Assembly (NCBI RefSeq): GCF_004364635.1
Contig: NZ_SOAX01000003.1
Span: forward strand, 373,538 to 437,537
Origin: Halospina denitrificans
GTDB lineage: Bacteria; Pseudomonadota; Gammaproteobacteria; Pseudomonadales; Oleiphilaceae
DNA length: 64,000 bases
Direction: 5' to 3'
Shown: in pieces, positions 2,120-8,400 of the stretch
Numbering within the stretch: the stretch's first letter is position 1
Layout: each line of letters starts with the position of its first letter
The notes under the pieces: generated by a model
What the model was told of the DNA's origin: nothing
What the model saw: the letters and a program-made list of their open reading frames with translations, nothing else
Databases searched by the model: none
Made by a program: the position numbers and the translations under genes

Positions 2120-2974
2120 TTACTCCGCAGGGGACTGCATGCATTCAGGGCAGTAAAGAGTACCCAGACGCAGATGATAACGGACTGTCGTGCCCGCATC
2201 GATTTCCTCGCCGCAGCTATCGCAGAGAGAGCCAATCTCCAGCGTGACCTCTCCATAGCCCGATACCGGAATTTCCATGTCGCCTATTTTCCGGTTCCAG
2301 GGCTCATCCTTGACAATATCCTCCCTGAAACTGTTTTCCAGACCACGCCATCGCTCTATCAAGTGTTCAGGCAGATTGTGGCGCCTCATGGATTCCACCA
2401 TTATCGACTCTCTATAATCGAATAGATCATCGGATATCACCATCCAGTGATGAGCGTTGCGCGGCCTGTCTCCGAAATAAACCTTTTCTCCCGTAAACTT
2501 CTGCTTCATGAAAAGATACTGCTTTTCCTGCACCCGTTGCCGGGTTACGCCGTGAAAAAATGGGGAGAGCCGTTCATCCGAAAAAACCCGGATGTAGAAA
2601 TCCTCAAGAATTTCTGACAGAACACGGCCGTTATCCAGTGCCTCCCACATTTCTGGATCCGGCGACAGGAACGTTTCTTTACGGCTTGTGGACGACTTCC
2701 TTTTAACACTGCCTTTTCCCGCCGGAACAATCGAGAGTCCTTCTATCGGTCTGCAAACACAGGGAAGAAAACATCCCTGCTCAACCTGTTCATCACTGAG
2801 TCCTTTCTGGGATTTTGGGGGCAGTCTCCCCTTTTCAGCAATGTGCATGCAGGTGTGACAGGATCCCTTGCGGCAGGAAAAAGGGAAATTCACACCCTGT
2901 CGCAGCATTGCTTCAAGCAGGGTTTCGTGCGGATCACAATCATAACTGCTGCCCGAATACTCAATCCTGAACAT
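2120..2974 (-). CDS. 2Fe-2S ferredoxin / truncated globin / zinc-ribbon fusion protein
   Basis: A 284-residue protein with three modules. Residues 1-90 look like a plant-type 2Fe-2S ferredoxin: SCRKGSCHTC gives Cys34, Cys39 and Cys42, with the fourth ligand at Cys72 or Cys74 in FLPCVCRP. Residues about 105-225 resemble a truncated haemoglobin: LSPFFHGV, then NAHHWMVISDDLFDYR, with His175/His176 as candidate proximal haem ligand. Residues 248-280 carry two CxxC pairs (Cys251/254 and Cys275/278), probably a zinc ribbon. It is the last gene of a leftward cassette, 16 bases after a roadblock gene. A role in redox or gas sensing, or in electron delivery to haem, is inference. Domain calls rest on motifs only. 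Confidence 0.8.
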   Translation of the reverse strand: MFRIEYSGSSYDCDPHETLLEAMLRQGVNFPFSCRKGSCHTCMHIAEKGRLPPKSQKGLSDEQVEQGCFLPCVCRPIEGLSIVPAGKGSVKRKSSTSRKETFLSPDPEMWEALDNGRVLSEILEDFYIRVFSDERLSPFFHGVTRQRVQEKQYLFMKQKFTGEKVYFGDRPRNAHHWMVISDDLFDYRESIMVESMRRHNLPEHLIERWRGLENSFREDIVKDEPWNRKIGDMEIPVSGYGEVTLEIGSLCDSCGEEIDAGTTVRYHLRLGTLYCPECMQSPAE

Positions 2975-2990
2975 AACAATTGCTCACGCG

Positions 2991-3416
2991 TCAGTAATTA
3001 TTTCCGATTAGTTCGTCGATTTTTGAGGCCGATTTGCGTGCCTCGAGAAAGATCCGTCCGAGGTTGACGCTTGGTTTGGCAGCTATGGCGAGAACCTTGT
3101 CACCGCCGGCCCTCACCAGGAGCATCAGTCCTTGAGAGCCTTCTATCAGCAGTTGCTTCATCTCGCCGCGGGCGATCTCGTCCGCGGCCCTTTCAGCCAG
3201 TGCAAGCAGCGATGCGCACATTGCCGCAAAGCGGTCCTCATCGGTATCTTTCCCCAGCACCGCGCCAATGATGTAGCCATCGGAGGTCATCGTGGCAGAT
3301 GCTTCTATGTCGCTGGAGGAAGCATTCAACTCCCGCAAAACCCCCCTTGCTGACGTTGCCGCAGTTGCCGCACTTCCTTTTACAGGATTCTGTCCGGAAT
3401 CAGTCGAGGCGCTCAT
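2991..3416 (-). CDS. Roadblock/LC7-domain protein (MglB-like), second copy
   Basis: A 141-residue protein. After a low-complexity N-terminus (about 30 residues rich in Ser, Thr and Ala) it has a single roadblock/LC7-like fold: ELNASSSDIEASATMTSDGY, a helix MCASLLALAERAADEI, strands QLLIEGSQGLMLLVRAGGDKVLAIAA, and a final helix GRIFLEARKSASKIDELI. In known systems MglB-type roadblock dimers are activators of MglA-type GTPases, and a GTPase of that kind is encoded two genes upstream. The ATG lies 68 bases after the previous stop and the gene ends 16 bases before the ferredoxin-globin gene. A regulatory partnership with the GTPase is inferred from context. Confidence 0.8.
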   Translation of the reverse strand: MSASTDSGQNPVKGSAATAATSARGVLRELNASSSDIEASATMTSDGYIIGAVLGKDTDEDRFAAMCASLLALAERAADEIARGEMKQLLIEGSQGLMLLVRAGGDKVLAIAAKPSVNLGRIFLEARKSASKIDELIGNNY

Positions 3417-3484: not shown

Positions 3485-3892
3485 TTAAAGTCCAGCTTCA
3501 ACCGTAGAGAGAGCCGTGCGTGCCTTTGTAAGGACCATGCCCAGATTGGCGGTTTTCCGGCAGACAAACGTCACCACGTGATCCTGATGGGCCTTGGCTC
3601 GCATGAATACGTGAATGAGGTTTTCGCTGTTCACAATGATTTCCTGGAAGTAATGGAAGTCATCAAGTGGCAAGCCCCTCGCTTTTTTGAACATGTTCTC
3701 GATGCTGACGACATTCGGTCCCTGGAAAAGATCGGCAGTAGCGGCAGCGAGCATTTCCAGAACTTCGTCCGGATGCGAATCCACCGTTTTGATTCCAAGA
3801 AGCATCCCGCTGGAGATGTCGACATAGCCTCCAGCAAGGCATTCGGGAATGGTTGTAATCGCTTCTTGTATGGTGTTATCGAGGTCAGACAT
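3485..3892 (-). CDS. Roadblock/LC7-like protein, first copy
   Basis: A 135-residue protein that I place in the roadblock/LC7 superfamily with less certainty than its neighbour. It has an N-terminal helix, a GYVDISSGMLLGIKTVD strand pair, a helix DEVLEMLAAATADLF, strands EIIVNSENLIHVFMRA and HVVTFVCRKTANLGMVLTK, and a last helix. The order matches the 2991-3416 protein, though overall identity is low by eye. It may form the second half of a heterodimeric roadblock module acting on the GTPase. A good Shine-Dalgarno (AAGGAGG in the reverse strand) lies just upstream. It starts 41 bases after the ABC-phosphatase gene. Confidence 0.68.
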   Translation of the reverse strand: MSDLDNTIQEAITTIPECLAGGYVDISSGMLLGIKTVDSHPDEVLEMLAAATADLFQGPNVVSIENMFKKARGLPLDDFHYFQEIIVNSENLIHVFMRAKAHQDHVVTFVCRKTANLGMVLTKARTALSTVEAGL

Positions 3893-3933: not shown

Positions 3934-5271
3934 TCAGGATCCCTGCGCGGTTTTCGCCCGTTCCGTCAGAAACAGGGCAAATTTCTCCAGGAATTCCACC
4001 TGTGCTTCGGATTGAACCCAACGGGGCTCGATGCGCCGGACCATTTCCAGTGAATCCAGCGCGGCCATGCCTTCCCAGATCAGGCAGGAGGCAAGTACGG
4101 TTCCGGTACGACCGAGACCAGCCCTGCAGTGGACAGCGACAACGCCACCTTCATCACAGAGCCTCTGGATCCTTTTGCAAAGGCCCGCAGCCTGGGTGAT
4201 TGAGGGGGCCGCCATGTCCTGGAAGGGTGACCAGAAATTGTCGATGCCGTACTCGGCCAGGGCTTCGGTGTCAGGTCTGGTTTCGGTCAGGGTGATCAGT
4301 GTGGTGACGCCAACCCGTTTCAGTGCTGCGAGGTCATGCTCAAGATCCTGAACAATTCCCGGTCTGGGTGTTCCAGCAAGCTGTCCTTTCTTGAGCCAGA
4401 GAAAACCTCTCGGGCCGAAACTGTCGCTGACAAAGGATCGTGCTTCCTCCGGGAGGGGCGGGGGCGCAGGCGTTTCAGGAGCGAGGGTCTCAGGGTCCGC
4501 ATCGGGAGCGGCAACGGCGCAGGATCCGGTTCTCACGAAGCTTTGCCCGGCCTCGCTGACCGGAGACTTGAGAAAGTCGCTCGTTTTTGCCGCCTCATGA
4601 ACGCTGCCTCCCGCAATTAAAACCATGCGTCCGCCAAGCATTGAGGCGTGAGAAAGATTGTGCAGCGCAATCAGGATTGAGCGCCGATGGGCCTCGGAAG
4701 CAATGTAATCCAATAGGCGCCGTGCTTCCTGATCATTCAGGCCGGTCGTTGGTTCATCCAGCAGAATCAGGCGGGCCCCTGTTGCCGCGAGCCTCATGGT
4801 GGCGAGATGTCTTTGCTGTGCCAGATTCAGGTGAATGGCCGGCTCGTCAATCCGATCAATAAGCTCGTGCAAACCGGCTGCTTCCAGAAGTCTCTGCGCC
4901 AGTTCGCGCTGCTGAATCGGGGACAGGGACCTGCGTTCGGGCAGATCCTGAATGATGTTTTCAAGGATGCTCGCCATCACCATTCTGGCGTTCTGTGCGG
5001 CGAGTACGGGCCGTTCCCCATCGCCCAGGGGGTTGCCAAGGTAATTCACACTGCCCCAGGTACGAAGGTTGGGGTTGGGATCGTTAAAACCGGCCAGGGT
5101 CCGGAGCAGTGTCGATTTTCCGGTTCCGCTGGGGCCAAGGAGAATGGTGACCTCACGGTCCGGAACCTCAAGATCGATACTTGCAAGTACGGTTTTCTCG
5201 CTGAAGGCCACGCCAAACCCGCTAAGCGAGAGAACCGACGGATTTGAGGCATCCTGTTCAGGGGTGTTCAA
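3934..5271 (-). CDS. ABC-type ATPase fused to a tyrosine/dual-specificity phosphatase
   Basis: A 445-residue two-domain protein. Residues about 10-235 form an ABC ATPase: Walker A LLGPSGTGKSTLL, Walker B LILLDEPTTGLN and an H-loop IALHNLSH. The signature is weak (HLNLAQQRHLATMR rather than LSGGQ). A Pro/Glu-rich linker follows. The C-terminal 150 residues look like a Cdc14/DSP-type phosphatase with the P-loop VHCRAGLGRTG and a conserved Asp upstream in GIDNFWSPFQDMAAP. No permease is encoded nearby, so transport is not indicated. It overlaps the upstream GTPase gene by 4 bases. I read it as a soluble signalling enzyme, by inference. Confidence 0.85.
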   Translation of the reverse strand: MNTPEQDASNPSVLSLSGFGVAFSEKTVLASIDLEVPDREVTILLGPSGTGKSTLLRTLAGFNDPNPNLRTWGSVNYLGNPLGDGERPVLAAQNARMVMASILENIIQDLPERRSLSPIQQRELAQRLLEAAGLHELIDRIDEPAIHLNLAQQRHLATMRLAATGARLILLDEPTTGLNDQEARRLLDYIASEAHRRSILIALHNLSHASMLGGRMVLIAGGSVHEAAKTSDFLKSPVSEAGQSFVRTGSCAVAAPDADPETLAPETPAPPPLPEEARSFVSDSFGPRGFLWLKKGQLAGTPRPGIVQDLEHDLAALKRVGVTTLITLTETRPDTEALAEYGIDNFWSPFQDMAAPSITQAAGLCKRIQRLCDEGGVVAVHCRAGLGRTGTVLASCLIWEGMAALDSLEMVRRIEPRWVQSEAQVEFLEKFALFLTERAKTAQGS

Positions 5272-5801
5272 CGCTTAACTCCAGGGTCCAGCATGGCCAA
5301 CAACGCCTGCAGCAGAACGGTAATATCGTTTCTTTCGCGGGCATCGACTTCAAAAACCGGGGCCTTCACACCAAGCTCATTCAGCTTGGTGTGGTAGGAA
5401 TACAGGCCAGGCCGGGCCTTCATATCCATCCGGGTTACACCGATGACCATGGAGCTTTTCTTGATGAAAGGGCGAAAGGCCTGGATAAAGAATTCCAGGT
5501 CAGCAAGTGGATCTTCCCGTTTGTTGTCGAGCAGCAGGACGAGGCCAAGCCCCCCGATTGTTATGATGTCCCACATAAAGCTGAAGCGTTCCTGGCCAGG
5601 AGTCCCGTACAGGTGGATTTTCTGTTCGCCTCCGACATCCAAAGTGCCGTAATCCATGGCAACAGTGGTCGTTTCCTTGCGCTCCGAAACGTCATCGCTC
5701 GCCTTGCTCTCGGTGCTGACCACCTCGATATCGCTGATGGTCTGTATTGCTGTCGTTTTCCCGGCCCCGACAGGACCGGCGAAGATGATTTTATGTTCCA
5801 C
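5268..5801 (-). CDS. MglA-like small Ras-family GTPase
   Basis: A 177-residue GTPase. G1 is GPVGAGKT (residues 9-16), G3 is YGTPGQERF (65-73) and G4 is the variant TRMD (123-126) instead of NKxD. The TPGQ form of G3 is typical of MglA and related bacterial GTPases that work with roadblock proteins. There is no membrane segment or lipidation motif. It starts 9 bases after the preceding gene and its stop overlaps the start of the ABC-phosphatase gene, so all are co-transcribed. Roadblock proteins encoded downstream are likely GAP or GEF partners. The cellular output is unknown. Confidence 0.9.
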   Translation of the reverse strand: MEHKIIFAGPVGAGKTTAIQTISDIEVVSTESKASDDVSERKETTTVAMDYGTLDVGGEQKIHLYGTPGQERFSFMWDIITIGGLGLVLLLDNKREDPLADLEFFIQAFRPFIKKSSMVIGVTRMDMKARPGLYSYHTKLNELGVKAPVFEVDARERNDITVLLQALLAMLDPGVKR

Positions 5802-5810
5802 AAAGAACTC

Positions 5811-6449
5811 CTAACGTCCGGAGAGCTTGCCGAGAAGCGAGGACAGGAGAGTCTGGTTGCGATGGGGCTCCAGTCGCGGCTCCTCTGGCTTACGGTTGAT
5901 GGGGCGAGCAAAACCGGCAGCACGGGCTGCGCTGTAAATCTGGTACATTTCCTTGGCTGGAACTTTCAGCAGCCGGGACGCAAAGAAGATGGATGTCGGG
6001 TGTTGGTAGAACAGGGCCAGGCTTCTGAATGTATCGGGTGTTAAAGGCAGACGCGTCAGGTTGGGCCAGTAATCGAGCTGAACAACATCGTTCCAGCTAC
6101 ACCCCTCCATCAGGCGGCCCTTGGAGACATGAAAGGCGGTTTGCCACATCAGTTCGTCTATATTCCTTCCGACCCGGTTCGCGTAAGGCGCGCTGTCTTC
6201 TTCAGAGACAATGGTTACGCGACACTTGTCGGGGGGAAGCTGAAGGAGCTCTGGCAGATCCGGGCTGTCTGCAAAGTACTCGCCCCGGGTACTGAGAAGC
6301 ACCAGGCTTCCATGTCCTTCGGCAGAAACCCGAATGTTCTGCTGATTCGCTAACGCCCGTCTAAAGCTGGTGATCAGGCAATCATCAGGGCTGAAAAACT
6401 CTGGAGCTGCCGCATTATTCGAGTTCTGGGGGTCTGCTCTTACGTCCAT
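5811..6449 (-). CDS. Conserved protein of unknown function, first gene of GTPase/roadblock cassette
   Basis: A 212-residue soluble protein that I do not recognise. The frame is open upstream to a TTG at 6539, but the ATG at 6447-6449 has a Shine-Dalgarno-like GGGAAGG directly upstream and starts in the right place, so I use it. Visible parts are a central alpha/beta segment (SLVLLSTRGEYFADSPDL, then CRVTIVSEED) and a C-terminal helical region (LFYQHPTSIFFASRLLKVPA, then MYQIYSAARAAGF) that could be a winged-helix-like or adaptor domain. It is probably the promoter-proximal gene of the leftward operon, 9 bases before the GTPase. It could be an effector or scaffold of the GTPase, but nothing in the sequence proves this. 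Confidence 0.75.
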   Translation of the reverse strand: MDVRADPQNSNNAAAPEFFSPDDCLITSFRRALANQQNIRVSAEGHGSLVLLSTRGEYFADSPDLPELLQLPPDKCRVTIVSEEDSAPYANRVGRNIDELMWQTAFHVSKGRLMEGCSWNDVVQLDYWPNLTRLPLTPDTFRSLALFYQHPTSIFFASRLLKVPAKEMYQIYSAARAAGFARPINRKPEEPRLEPHRNQTLLSSLLGKLSGR

Positions 6450-6502
6450 GCGCCTTCCCGGAAAGATGGGTTTATTTTTCTGATTTTTTCTTAACCATGA
6501 TC

Positions 6503-6523
6503 CTGCTATTAAAAAATTAGCAG
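6503..6523. promoter_or_regulatory. A+T-rich 21-bp inverted repeat upstream of the GTPase cassette
   Basis: Six-base arms CTGCTA and TAGCAG flank a nine-base A+T-rich centre. It lies about 55 bases upstream of the first ATG of the leftward cassette, in a markedly A+T-rich stretch (6470-6530) suited to a promoter. An operator or part of the promoter is plausible; a hairpin in the leader is the alternative. No clear -35/-10 pair was assigned. Confidence 0.35.
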
Positions 6524-6667
6524 CTGTATCCGAGGGCAATTTCAGGTGTGCAATATCCGGCTATGGAGGGCGCCAGATACGACCTGTCTTGCAATAAACG
6601 TACTTCTGCCCTCCTGGGCAGATGATGCCAGGGACGCGCTTTCGCATCTGGAAACAACCCGAGCGCT

Positions 6668-6679
6668 GGGGGGGGGGGG
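6668..6679. repeat. Homopolymer tract of 12 G
   Basis: Twelve consecutive G residues lie between the cassette promoter region and the tRNA-Leu gene. No gene runs through it that I can support. Such tracts slip during replication and are also common sequencing-error sites, so the length should be treated as approximate. The surrounding stretch 6540-6788 holds no other feature that I can support except a small hairpin (CGATAA, four-base loop, TTATCG) at about 6744-6759. Confidence 0.6.
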
Positions 6680-6788
6680 CTATGGTAGGGACATTCGGAG
6701 TTGCAGCAGGCCCTCTGTGCACCAGACAGACCTATGACTCATCGATAATGATTTATCGTGGGTAATTTTCGTACGGGGGAATCAGGGT

Positions 6789-6873
6789 TGGTGCCGAGGG
6801 TGGGACTCGAACCCACAAGGCTTTCGCCACCTGATTTTGAGTCAGGCGTGTTTACCGGTTTCACCACCTCGGC
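6789..6873 (-). tRNA. tRNA-Leu (anticodon CAA)
   Basis: Reverse complement of 6789-6873 folds as a class II tRNA. The acceptor stem is GCCGAGG paired with CCTCGGC, followed by discriminator A and an encoded CCA. The anticodon stem CCTGA/TCAGG encloses loop CTCAAAA, anticodon CAA (decodes UUG). A long variable arm and the T-arm GGGTTCGAGTCCC are visible. Length is 85 nt including CCA. A strong promoter lies directly upstream. It stands alone. Confidence 0.96.
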
Positions 6874-6884
6874 GACGGAATCGG

Positions 6885-6912
6885 ATTATACGCGTGCGCG
6901 GCAACAGGTCAA
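6885..6912 (-). promoter_or_regulatory. Sigma-70 promoter of tRNA-Leu
   Basis: On the minus strand TTGACC (6907-6912) and a perfect TATAAT (6885-6890) are separated by 16 bases, and the tRNA 5' end lies 11 bases after the -10 box. A hairpin-forming inverted repeat AACCCGC/GCGGGTT (6915-6934) sits immediately upstream. The rest of 6874-6993 holds only the leader of the adenylate cyclase gene. Confidence 0.8.
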
Positions 6913-6993
6913 TCAACCCGCGGCCAGGCGGGTTAATTGTTAGCCGGCCCATTTGCTGATACCGTTACGCTAAAAGGATCCGATCGTTAACCC

Positions 6994-8400
6994 ATGATGA
7001 ACGCACCGTTAATGCCCTCGGGCATCACCGCCATGGATCGCAAACAGCGACCGGCCGCGATACCGCCAATGCCGGACTACCATGCCCGTGTCATGGGCTA
7101 CATGGCCGGCGGCGCCATCATCATGACCGGGGTACTGATCGACCACTTCCCCGCCCACCTGATATGGCTGGTGCCCCTCGCCCTGCTCTGGCCCCATGCC
7201 CTGTACTTCCTCAGCCGGGCACTGCTTCCCAAGCGGACCGCCGTAGTCCGCGAGCGCATCCTCCTTCTGGACGGCGTAATCATCGGGTCTCTGATTGTAC
7301 AACTGCAGTTCAGTCTGATCCCCGCCATCATGCTACTGCTGATGGTCAGTTTCAGCTGCATCATCGTTGGCGGGCTGCGGGCGTGGGCCATGAACATGGT
7401 CGCCCTGGCCCTGGGTATCGCCGGTACCGTTGCGGTACTGGGCGCGGAATTCCAACCGGAAATACCCCTGACCCTGGCGATGGTCAGTGCCGTGGCAACG
7501 GCGGTCTACGTGTGCATCATGGCCTTCTATACCTACCAACAGGCCAGGGCCCTCGTGCTCGCCAAGTCCCAGATCCAGTACCAGCGGGAACAGTCCATTG
7601 CCCTGTCCCACAAGCTGGCCAAGTATCTCTCTCCCCAGGTCTGGCAGTCGATCTTCACGGGCGAACGGGATGTGCGCCTGGAGACCCAGCGCAAGAAACT
7701 GGCTGTCTTTTTTTCGGATATTCAGGGCTTCACCGAGCTGTCCGAGGAAATGGAGCCGGAAGGGCTTACCGACCTGCTCAACACCTACTTCACGGAAATG
7801 TCCCAGATCGCGCTGAAGTATGGGGGCACCATCGACAAGTTCGTGGGTGACAGCATCATGATCTTCTTCGGTGACCCCACCAGCCAGGGCGCCAAGAACG
7901 ACACCATCGCCTGTGTGGCCATGGCGATCGAGATGCGCAAGCACATGACGGTGCTGCGCCAGAAGTGGAAAAGCCAGGGCATCCGTACGCCGCTGGAAAT
8001 CCGCATGGGCATCAGTACCGGCTTCTGCACCGTGGGCAACTTCGGCGCGGACAACCGCATGGATTACACCATCATCGGCAAGGAAGTGAACCTGGCCAGC
8101 CGCCTGGAAGAGCTTGGAGACCCCGGCGAGATCCTGGTCTCCTATGAGACCTTCTCCCTGATCAAGGACAGGATCATGTGCCGCGACAAGGGCGAGATCA
8201 CCGTTAAGGGTTTTGCCCGGCCCGTTCCCATCTACCAGGTCATCGACTTCCGCCAGGACATTGGCAACAGCCGCAGTTTCATCGAGCACGAAGGCGACGG
8301 CTTTGCCATGTACCTGGACTCGGAAAAGGTGGACGCCAACGAGAGGGAGCAGATCATCCAGGCGCTGGACAATGCCGCCCGCCACCTCCGCGAAGACTGA
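6994..8400 (+). CDS. cyaB: MASE2-domain membrane adenylate cyclase (class III, CyaB-like)
   Basis: Makes cAMP from ATP. The 468-residue product has a hydrophobic N-terminal half with about six membrane segments (residues 30-190), resembling the MASE2 sensor of Pseudomonas CyaB (a protein of similar length), then a class III cyclase domain at about 225-400. In the cyclase, VFFSDIQGFTELSE and FVGDSIMIFFGDP supply metal-binding aspartates, and YTIIGKEVNLASRLE carries the transition-state Asn/Arg region. cAMP would act through a Vfr/CRP-type regulator, which is not in this window. The ATG at 6994 is followed by a second ATG, with only a distant Shine-Dalgarno (AAAAGGA), so the exact start is uncertain. 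Ends flush against convergent queF. Confidence 0.9.
   Translation: MMNAPLMPSGITAMDRKQRPAAIPPMPDYHARVMGYMAGGAIIMTGVLIDHFPAHLIWLVPLALLWPHALYFLSRALLPKRTAVVRERILLLDGVIIGSLIVQLQFSLIPAIMLLLMVSFSCIIVGGLRAWAMNMVALALGIAGTVAVLGAEFQPEIPLTLAMVSAVATAVYVCIMAFYTYQQARALVLAKSQIQYQREQSIALSHKLAKYLSPQVWQSIFTGERDVRLETQRKKLAVFFSDIQGFTELSEEMEPEGLTDLLNTYFTEMSQIALKYGGTIDKFVGDSIMIFFGDPTSQGAKNDTIACVAMAIEMRKHMTVLRQKWKSQGIRTPLEIRMGISTGFCTVGNFGADNRMDYTIIGKEVNLASRLEELGDPGEILVSYETFSLIKDRIMCRDKGEITVKGFARPVPIYQVIDFRQDIGNSRSFIEHEGDGFAMYLDSEKVDANEREQIIQALDNAARHLRED

Follow-up and report, generated by a model that had tools for sequence, protein, structure and literature searches.

A protein joining ferredoxin and truncated globin domains, encoded beside an MglA-type GTPase, Roadblock proteins and a phosphatase: a possible haem/iron-sulfur sensor

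The window analysed here, a stretch of 64,000 nucleotides, encodes a protein which combines a ferredoxin domain, a truncated globin domain and a cysteine-containing tail in a single chain, and its gene closes an operon for a small GTPase switch. We incline, with some reserve, to the reading that it represents a redox-fed haem/iron-sulfur sensor which sets this MglA-type GTPase/Roadblock/phosphatase switch. The parts are of known kinds, and we found no description of their combination in the open-licence literature: among the matches listed, neither a ferredoxin(-reductase)-truncated globin chain nor a globin-linked MglA system was described in the titles or the beginnings of the abstracts. The protein and its parts were assigned as follows.

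2120 to 2974, minus strand: Fer2-truncated globin protein with CxxC/CxxC tail, 284 aa, ATG start (Pfam, PDB search and model)
2717 to 2974, minus strand: [2Fe-2S] ferredoxin domain, residues 1-86, predicted ligands Cys34, Cys39, Cys42 and Cys72 (Pfam Fer2, cysteine conservation, structure match)
2660 to 2716, minus strand: variable linker, residues 87-105, whose place is occupied by an FAD/NAD reductase in 39 of 81 rows of the family alignment
2309 to 2659, minus strand: group 1 truncated globin domain, residues 106-222, with Tyr127, Phe140, Gln152 and His175 (Pfam Bac_globin, HbN alignment, structure match)
2123 to 2308, minus strand: four-cysteine (zinc-ribbon-like) C-terminal tail, residues 223-284, with C251xxC254 and C275xxC278 (cysteine conservation)

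The original prediction of a single chain with ferredoxin and truncated globin parts was confirmed by Pfam, which returned Fer2 at residues 6-76 (E 3e-14, above the curated cut-off) and Bac_globin at residues 113-218 (E 2.3e-8, 34.7 bits vs. a curated cut-off of 21), and by a PDB sequence search with the 284-aa protein, which matched plant-type ferredoxins best (4.6e-12) and HbN of M. tuberculosis at 7.2e-8. The AlphaFold2 model, which had been named as a check, likewise contains the globin fold. Its mean pLDDT is 91.7, with the lowest values around residues 91-100, and it matches HbN (1s56_A) with a Z score of 17.3 over 117 residues (rmsd 1.6) and the ferredoxin 3wcq with a Z score of 14.4 over 90 residues (rmsd 1.7); at a pTM of 0.68, the relative placement of the domains is insecure.

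Conservation was judged from relatives collected with a three-row profile of the globin-tail part, which found loci encoding it in species genomes, 120 in all; the best 80 of them were kept and form 81 rows together with the window protein. Because the scan used two peptide patterns, AHHWMVI and TGE[KD][VC]YFG, and the best 80 of 120 loci, conservation is biased near those motifs. In this set (window plus best 80 of 120 loci), Cys34, Cys39, Cys42 and Cys72 are identical in all 62 Fer2-bearing rows, and the Fer2 profile, the CX4CX2CXnC spacing and the ferredoxin fold agree with the plant-type [2Fe-2S] ferredoxin which had been proposed from these cysteines. Of the two histidines suggested as candidates for the proximal ligand, His175 is invariant across the 81 rows and His176 is shared by 79 of them; the first one aligns without gaps with the histidine of the QVH motif of HbN, the proximal HisF8. 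In the same register and the same 81 rows (window plus best 80 of 120 loci), Tyr127 corresponds to TyrB10 and Phe140 to PheCD1 (81 rows each), and Gln152 to GlnE11 (64 rows), using helix labels (B10, CD1, E11, F8) which we take to hold for the globin residues of the window protein. The two CxxC pairs expected to close the protein are also present, each cysteine being conserved in at least 79 of the 81 rows (C251, C254 and C278 in all of them, C275 in 79). Judging from these cysteines, the tail may be a zinc ribbon; the rows of the structure matches barely touch it.

Proteins of the same architecture, 282-287 aa in length, are present in five other Marinobacter records, and the fusion is therefore not a sequencing artefact. 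Marinobacter records are also the nearest relatives among the best 80 of 120 loci, both by search and by tree. Among six Marinobacter proteins the linker has a mean identity of 0.31, and rough dN/dS values are 0.14 for Fer2, 0.05 for the globin, 0.07 for the tail and 0.55 for the linker, obtained from 4-9 usable pairs of 15, with dS saturated in most of the pairs. With the window protein as query, no second match was found in its own genome, where PF00042 retrieved one weak 3/3-globin ORF of 153 aa. A viral origin was discarded, as viral contigs contained no relative, and so was a plasmid origin, as plasmids gave three Methylocystis records matching the ferredoxin part only (28-32% of the query).

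The globin-tail core is the constant part of the family and occurs in four architectures (window plus best 80 of 120 loci). The commonest form, Fer2-FAD-NAD-globin-tail (39 of 81 rows), is predicted to be a one-chain NAD(P)H-to-haem machine; 18 rows including the window show Fer2-globin-tail, 16 globin-tail without Fer2, and 5 Fer2-FAD-globin-tail. A further three rows carry no Fer2 call, two of them being cut by a contig end (L079, L091) and one having a Fer2 piece just upstream (L090). The best 80 of 120 loci are labelled as Pseudomonadota (58), Myxococcota (12), Nitrospirota (3), Acidobacteriota (2), Bacteroidota (2), Gemmatimonadota (1) and Planctomycetota (1), seven phyla in total, with one locus lacking a label; because many records are metagenome-assembled, single odd phyla may be binning errors. 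In the window protein, Pfam finds neither an FAD nor an NAD domain: it is the reductase-less form of its family, a point missed by the original prediction, and so offers no site of its own for NAD(P)H to enter. Two loci encode chains in which a truncated globin comes after a 3/3 globin, L125 at 6139-7050 near a GTPase-Roadblock operon (Pfam Globin and Bac_globin) and L162 at 5211-6359 (judged from the translation).

The gene is the last of six close minus-strand genes, whose spacings range between a 4-base overlap and 68 bases, in the order 242-aa protein, Ras-like GTPase, ABC-ATPase::tyrosine phosphatase, Robl2, Robl1 and Fer2-globin-tail protein. The other features of the operon are listed below.

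2991 to 3416, minus strand: Robl1, Roadblock/LC7 protein, MglB-like (Pfam Robl_LC7 5.2e-13)
3485 to 3892, minus strand: Robl2, Roadblock-fold protein without Pfam match, the most frequent partner (predicted fold)
3934 to 5271, minus strand: ABC-type ATPase fused to a dual-specificity/tyrosine phosphatase domain (ABC_tran 2.1e-16, Tc-R-P 8.7e-21, PTP-SAK 1.2e-17)
5268 to 5801, minus strand: Ras-like (MglA-type) small GTPase (Pfam, invariant G motifs, PDB matches)
5811 to 6539, minus strand: conserved 242-aa protein of unknown function, from the gene that opens the operon (no match in Pfam or NCBIfam)
6885 to 6912, minus strand: weak promoter-like site upstream of the operon, TTGACC-16-TATAAT, 11 of 12 positions (2 sites in the region vs. 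2.6 expected in shuffles)

The GTPase carries the invariant residues G9, G14-K15, T45-T46 and P68-G69-Q70; in the PDB it matches MglA chains with E about 2e-6, and Rab chains score higher, down to 6.4e-10. For Robl2, no Pfam family fits more than two of 29 members, none of them convincingly, NCBIfam returned no match either, and profile matches to the PDB were set aside as meaningless. Its Roadblock identity was settled by the predicted fold (pLDDT 89.6, pTM 0.83), for which MglB is the best match with a Z score of 15.5 over 118 residues (rmsd 2.3). By their titles, the 50 Foldseek matches listed for this model are MglB, MglC or other Roadblock/LC7 or LAMTOR/Ragulator/MP1-p14 proteins, except for 5x6u and 5x6v, which are titled only as human complexes. 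The profile similarity between Robl2 and Robl1 is short (34 columns, 74% probability). Among 44 ABC-related ORFs, 40 cover both the ABC and the phosphatase domain; all 40 contain a Walker A and an HCxxGxxR phosphatase motif, and the canonical LSGGQ signature is absent from all 40. The operon is flanked by a divergent gene for a MASE2-class III nucleotide cyclase (6994-8400) and, on the other side, by queA (992-2047).

Partners were counted if a tblastn match to the Marinobacter proteins with E 1e-4 or better lay on either strand within about 6 kb, the ABC protein being counted only above 33% identity, and divergent partners would escape these counts. Among the 52 well-flanked loci, which have at least 4 kb on both sides (from the best 80 of 120), 40 contain at least one of the six partners, with Robl2 at 38, the phosphatase at 37, ABC at 36, the GTPase at 29, the 242-aa protein at 26 and Robl1 at 24 loci. 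The labels of the partner-bearing loci span five named phyla, with 47 of 56 in Pseudomonadota, and this recurrence bears out the signalling-operon setting which the original prediction had assigned to the protein. Sorted by architecture (from the best 80 of 120 loci), Robl2 accompanies 20 of 24 complete, 11 of 15 Fer2-globin-tail and 5 of 9 globin-tail members, and the GTPase 15 of 24, 11 of 15 and 1 of 9, respectively; Robl1 is also found at 1 of 9 globin-tail loci, and the partner link is thus weakest in the globin-only members. The cyclase and QueA genes flanking the operon had no counterpart in any of 86 loci at E 1e-3, both being recovered in the window as control; the cassette is therefore kept and its flanks are not.

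The association extends to whole genomes. Five of 274 genomes of the class contain a close Robl2 (E at most 1e-50), three of which hold a globin-tail protein, and none of the other 269 does among the matches listed (down to E about 3e-8), corresponding to a Fisher value of 2.9e-6, or 1.6e-4 with the own genome removed. In 398 genomes of the phylum, Robl2 is found in five at E 1e-20 and the tailed globin protein in two, both with Robl2; the profile matches in G330 and G566 are other globins without the tail. In G468, the globin-tail protein and Robl2 are encoded on different contigs. Robl2 is present and the globin absent in G221, G280 and G509; the first two genomes indicate that phosphatase and Robl2 can exist without the globin, which also occurs without both. 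Neither the fused protein nor Robl2 was found in four congeneric genomes, G001-G004, of which G002 is only 68% complete. That an ordinary globin-ferredoxin fusion is carried along with unrelated genes by chance would agree with the 12 of 52 well-flanked loci (from the best 80 of 120) lacking all six partners, but this is very improbable and largely contradicted by the presence of partners at the other 40 loci in several phyla, by their co-occurrence in genomes and by the changing flanks.

Individual loci vary around the common scheme. A minimal Marinobacter unit at 4390-6564 of L043 consists of a 242-aa-type protein, the GTPase and the ferredoxin-globin; the locus yielded no match to a Roadblock protein or a phosphatase. 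In L047 (6582-12530), the strand that carries the cassette continues with a pair of Roadblock-type ORFs and with a nap-type operon for a 4Fe-4S protein, NapD and a molybdopterin oxidoreductase. A CxxCxxCC (zinc- or iron-chelating) protein is encoded just upstream of the globin gene in L047 (4546-4920) and L078 (4556-4954); the blastp cluster containing the ORF of L078 covers 11 loci, with Pfam checked for L047 and L078 only. In L106 (610-2691), a dynamin-family GTPase gene precedes a complete Fer2-FAD-NAD-globin-tail gene, and the usual partners are absent.

The reductase-less members may descend from complete ones. The FAD motif RxY[ST] is present in 36 of 39 complete members vs. none of the 22 reductase-less Fer2-bearing relatives, a number which excludes the window protein (best 80 of 120 loci). 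Between ferredoxin and globin, ten of these 22 retain inserts which are 107-141 residues long and lack the FAD motif, and five of the ten inserts still match the FAD-domain profile (E 1e-16 to 4e-4); the other 12, including five Marinobacter rows, have 19-45 residues at this place. In the tree of the globin-tail part, the Fer2-globin label requires six changes and is intermixed with complete members (e.g., L110 beside L080 and L113 beside L112); this tree, made by a quick method and weak near the root, cannot by itself separate loss from gain. Because of the decayed inserts, loss is the simpler reading, and the reductase was probably lost rather than gained in Marinobacter. A tblastn search at E 1e-4 with the domains of L074 revealed no separate reductase in the flanks of reductase-less members, the sole match outside genes being the Fer2 piece beside L090. 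Extended to the whole family, an ancestral NAD(P)H-FAD-[2Fe-2S]-haem machine may have repeatedly lost its flavin reductase and sometimes its ferredoxin in several phyla, keeping the globin, the CxxC tail and often the partners, and turning from an enzyme into a gas/redox sensor for a small-GTPase circuit; we regard this course as quite possible, just short of favouring it.

If the protein works as such a sensor, the truncated globin would bind haem and react with O2 and/or NO. Electrons would pass from NAD(P)H via FAD and [2Fe-2S] to haem within one chain in the complete relatives, and the N-terminal [2Fe-2S] domain of the window protein may be the remaining electron inlet of this ancestral machine. 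Because the flavin reductase is missing in Marinobacter, electrons would have to be supplied by a separate ferredoxin reductase; alternatively, the cluster itself may report the redox state of the cell. The ligand or redox state of the haem might then be passed, perhaps via the conserved CxxC tail, to the Roadblock proteins and the Ras-like GTPase, with the ABC-ATPase::phosphatase and the 242-aa protein of the first gene as possible outputs of the switch. Binding of haem, cluster and zinc, electron flow, ligand and every contact with the partners are predicted features. The original prediction had offered two roles for a ferredoxin attached to a globin. Reduction of the haem is supported indirectly, because the commonest relatives join Fer2, FAD, NAD and globin in one chain, and relaying of the haem ligand state is plausible.

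The same protein could be an NO dioxygenase or another haem oxidoreductase supplied by a separate reductase, with the GTPase, Roadblock and phosphatase genes merely co-regulated. TyrB10, PheCD1 and GlnE11 are retained in the window protein; pockets with TyrB10 and GlnE11 are typical of NO-dioxygenating globins and fit an enzyme equally well, and the lack of a transmitter domain fused to the globin (Pfam) counts against a sensor. The complete relatives with FAD and NAD in the chain also show the highest partner frequency (Robl2 at 20 of 24, from the best 80 of 120 loci), at least 7 of 58 relatives (G008, G013, G017, G021, G040, G042 and G052) have separate genes for a truncated globin and a Fer2-reductase next to each other on the same strand, and a nap-type operon lies downstream of one locus, L047. 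Reductases are discussed as the source of electrons for NO dioxygenation by truncated globins, and a globin-ferredoxin reductase operon of Legionella is under NsrR control (PMC3820574). Against an enzyme, the reductase is absent or decayed in the 22 Fer2-bearing relatives and Fer2 is absent in 16 of 81 rows (best 80 of 120 loci), partners often staying in place, and the flanks of reductase-less members hold no separate reductase (tblastn E 1e-4). Because the genes that usually accompany this family encode a small GTPase, Roadblock proteins and a phosphatase, we prefer sensing, which seems somewhat probable, over detoxification, which seems rather unlikely.

Instead of sensing a gas, ferredoxin and haem could also serve a partner, e.g., the catalytic cysteine of the phosphatase, as a redox relay or for cofactor repair. 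The active-site cysteine motif of the operon phosphatase (40 of 40 ORFs covering both domains) and the CxxCxxCC proteins encoded directly ahead of the globin in L047 and L078 would suit this role, which is nevertheless improbable, as Tyr127 and Phe140 on the ligand-binding face of the haem pocket are conserved in all 81 rows (window plus best 80 of 120 loci) and a pure relay would have no use for this face.

With sensing as the preferred reading, a ferredoxin-globin encoded beside a Ras-like GTPase and a phosphatase may connect haem chemistry to a bacterial signalling switch. Apart from a few models, little is known about what feeds into bacterial MglA/Roadblock systems, and most of the MglA-type GTPases found in PMC4316618 remain uncharacterised; a haem protein co-encoded with such a GTPase suggests a testable signal, namely O2, NO or redox state. 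The series of forms, graded from complete reductase-globin chains down to globin-only proteins, also offers a natural experiment on how a haem enzyme may become a sensor.

Among known systems, the window protein shares the 2/2 fold, TyrB10, PheCD1, GlnE11 and HisF8 with group 1 truncated haemoglobins (HbN of M. tuberculosis, GlbN of Legionella), as well as a kinship to ferredoxin-reductase electron donors, but differs by its Fer2 domain and four-cysteine tail, the family signature HHWMVI and the GTPase/Roadblock/phosphatase operon. The complete relatives resemble flavohaemoglobin (Hmp) in joining globin and FAD/NAD domains in one chain, but contain a 2/2 instead of a 3/3 globin, an N-terminal reductase and an added [2Fe-2S] domain; the window protein itself, lacking a 3/3 globin with C-terminal FAD/NAD domains, is not a flavohaemoglobin. 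The chimeric globins treated in PMC1457004 are flavohaemoglobins and globin-coupled sensors. The latter carry an N-terminal 3/3 globin fused to a transmitter, whereas the window protein has a 2/2 globin and no transmitter in Pfam or NCBIfam. HGbRL, a globin-Roadblock fusion of Methylacidiphilum, provides a precedent for globin-Roadblock coupling (PMC4476040), and like these sensors the window system links a globin with Roadblock/GTPase signalling; in contrast to HGbRL, the link is by operon rather than by fusion, the globin is of the 2/2 type and an electron-transfer domain is present. Actinobacterial conservons (cvn) likewise combine Roadblock and Ras-like GTPase genes in an operon (PMC4316618). 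No histidine-kinase family corresponding to their kinase CvnA was found in the six operon proteins among the Pfam and NCBIfam matches listed (for the ABC protein, the best 25 of 32 and 25 of 181 matches). In Group 3 MglA systems, an MglA-like GTPase is encoded beside one or two MglB-like proteins and an unknown protein with a receiver-like N-terminus and a winged-helix C-terminus (Wuichet and Sogaard-Andersen 2014, PMC4316618). In gene arrangement, the genes at 5811-6539, 5268-5801, 2991-3416 and 3485-3892 correspond to such a system, and the 242-aa protein (5811-6539) is a candidate for the unknown component. The words globin, ferredoxin and phosphatase do not occur in the main text of PMC4316618, and compared to the systems described there, the window operon adds an ABC-ATPase::phosphatase, Robl2 and a haem/Fe-S protein.
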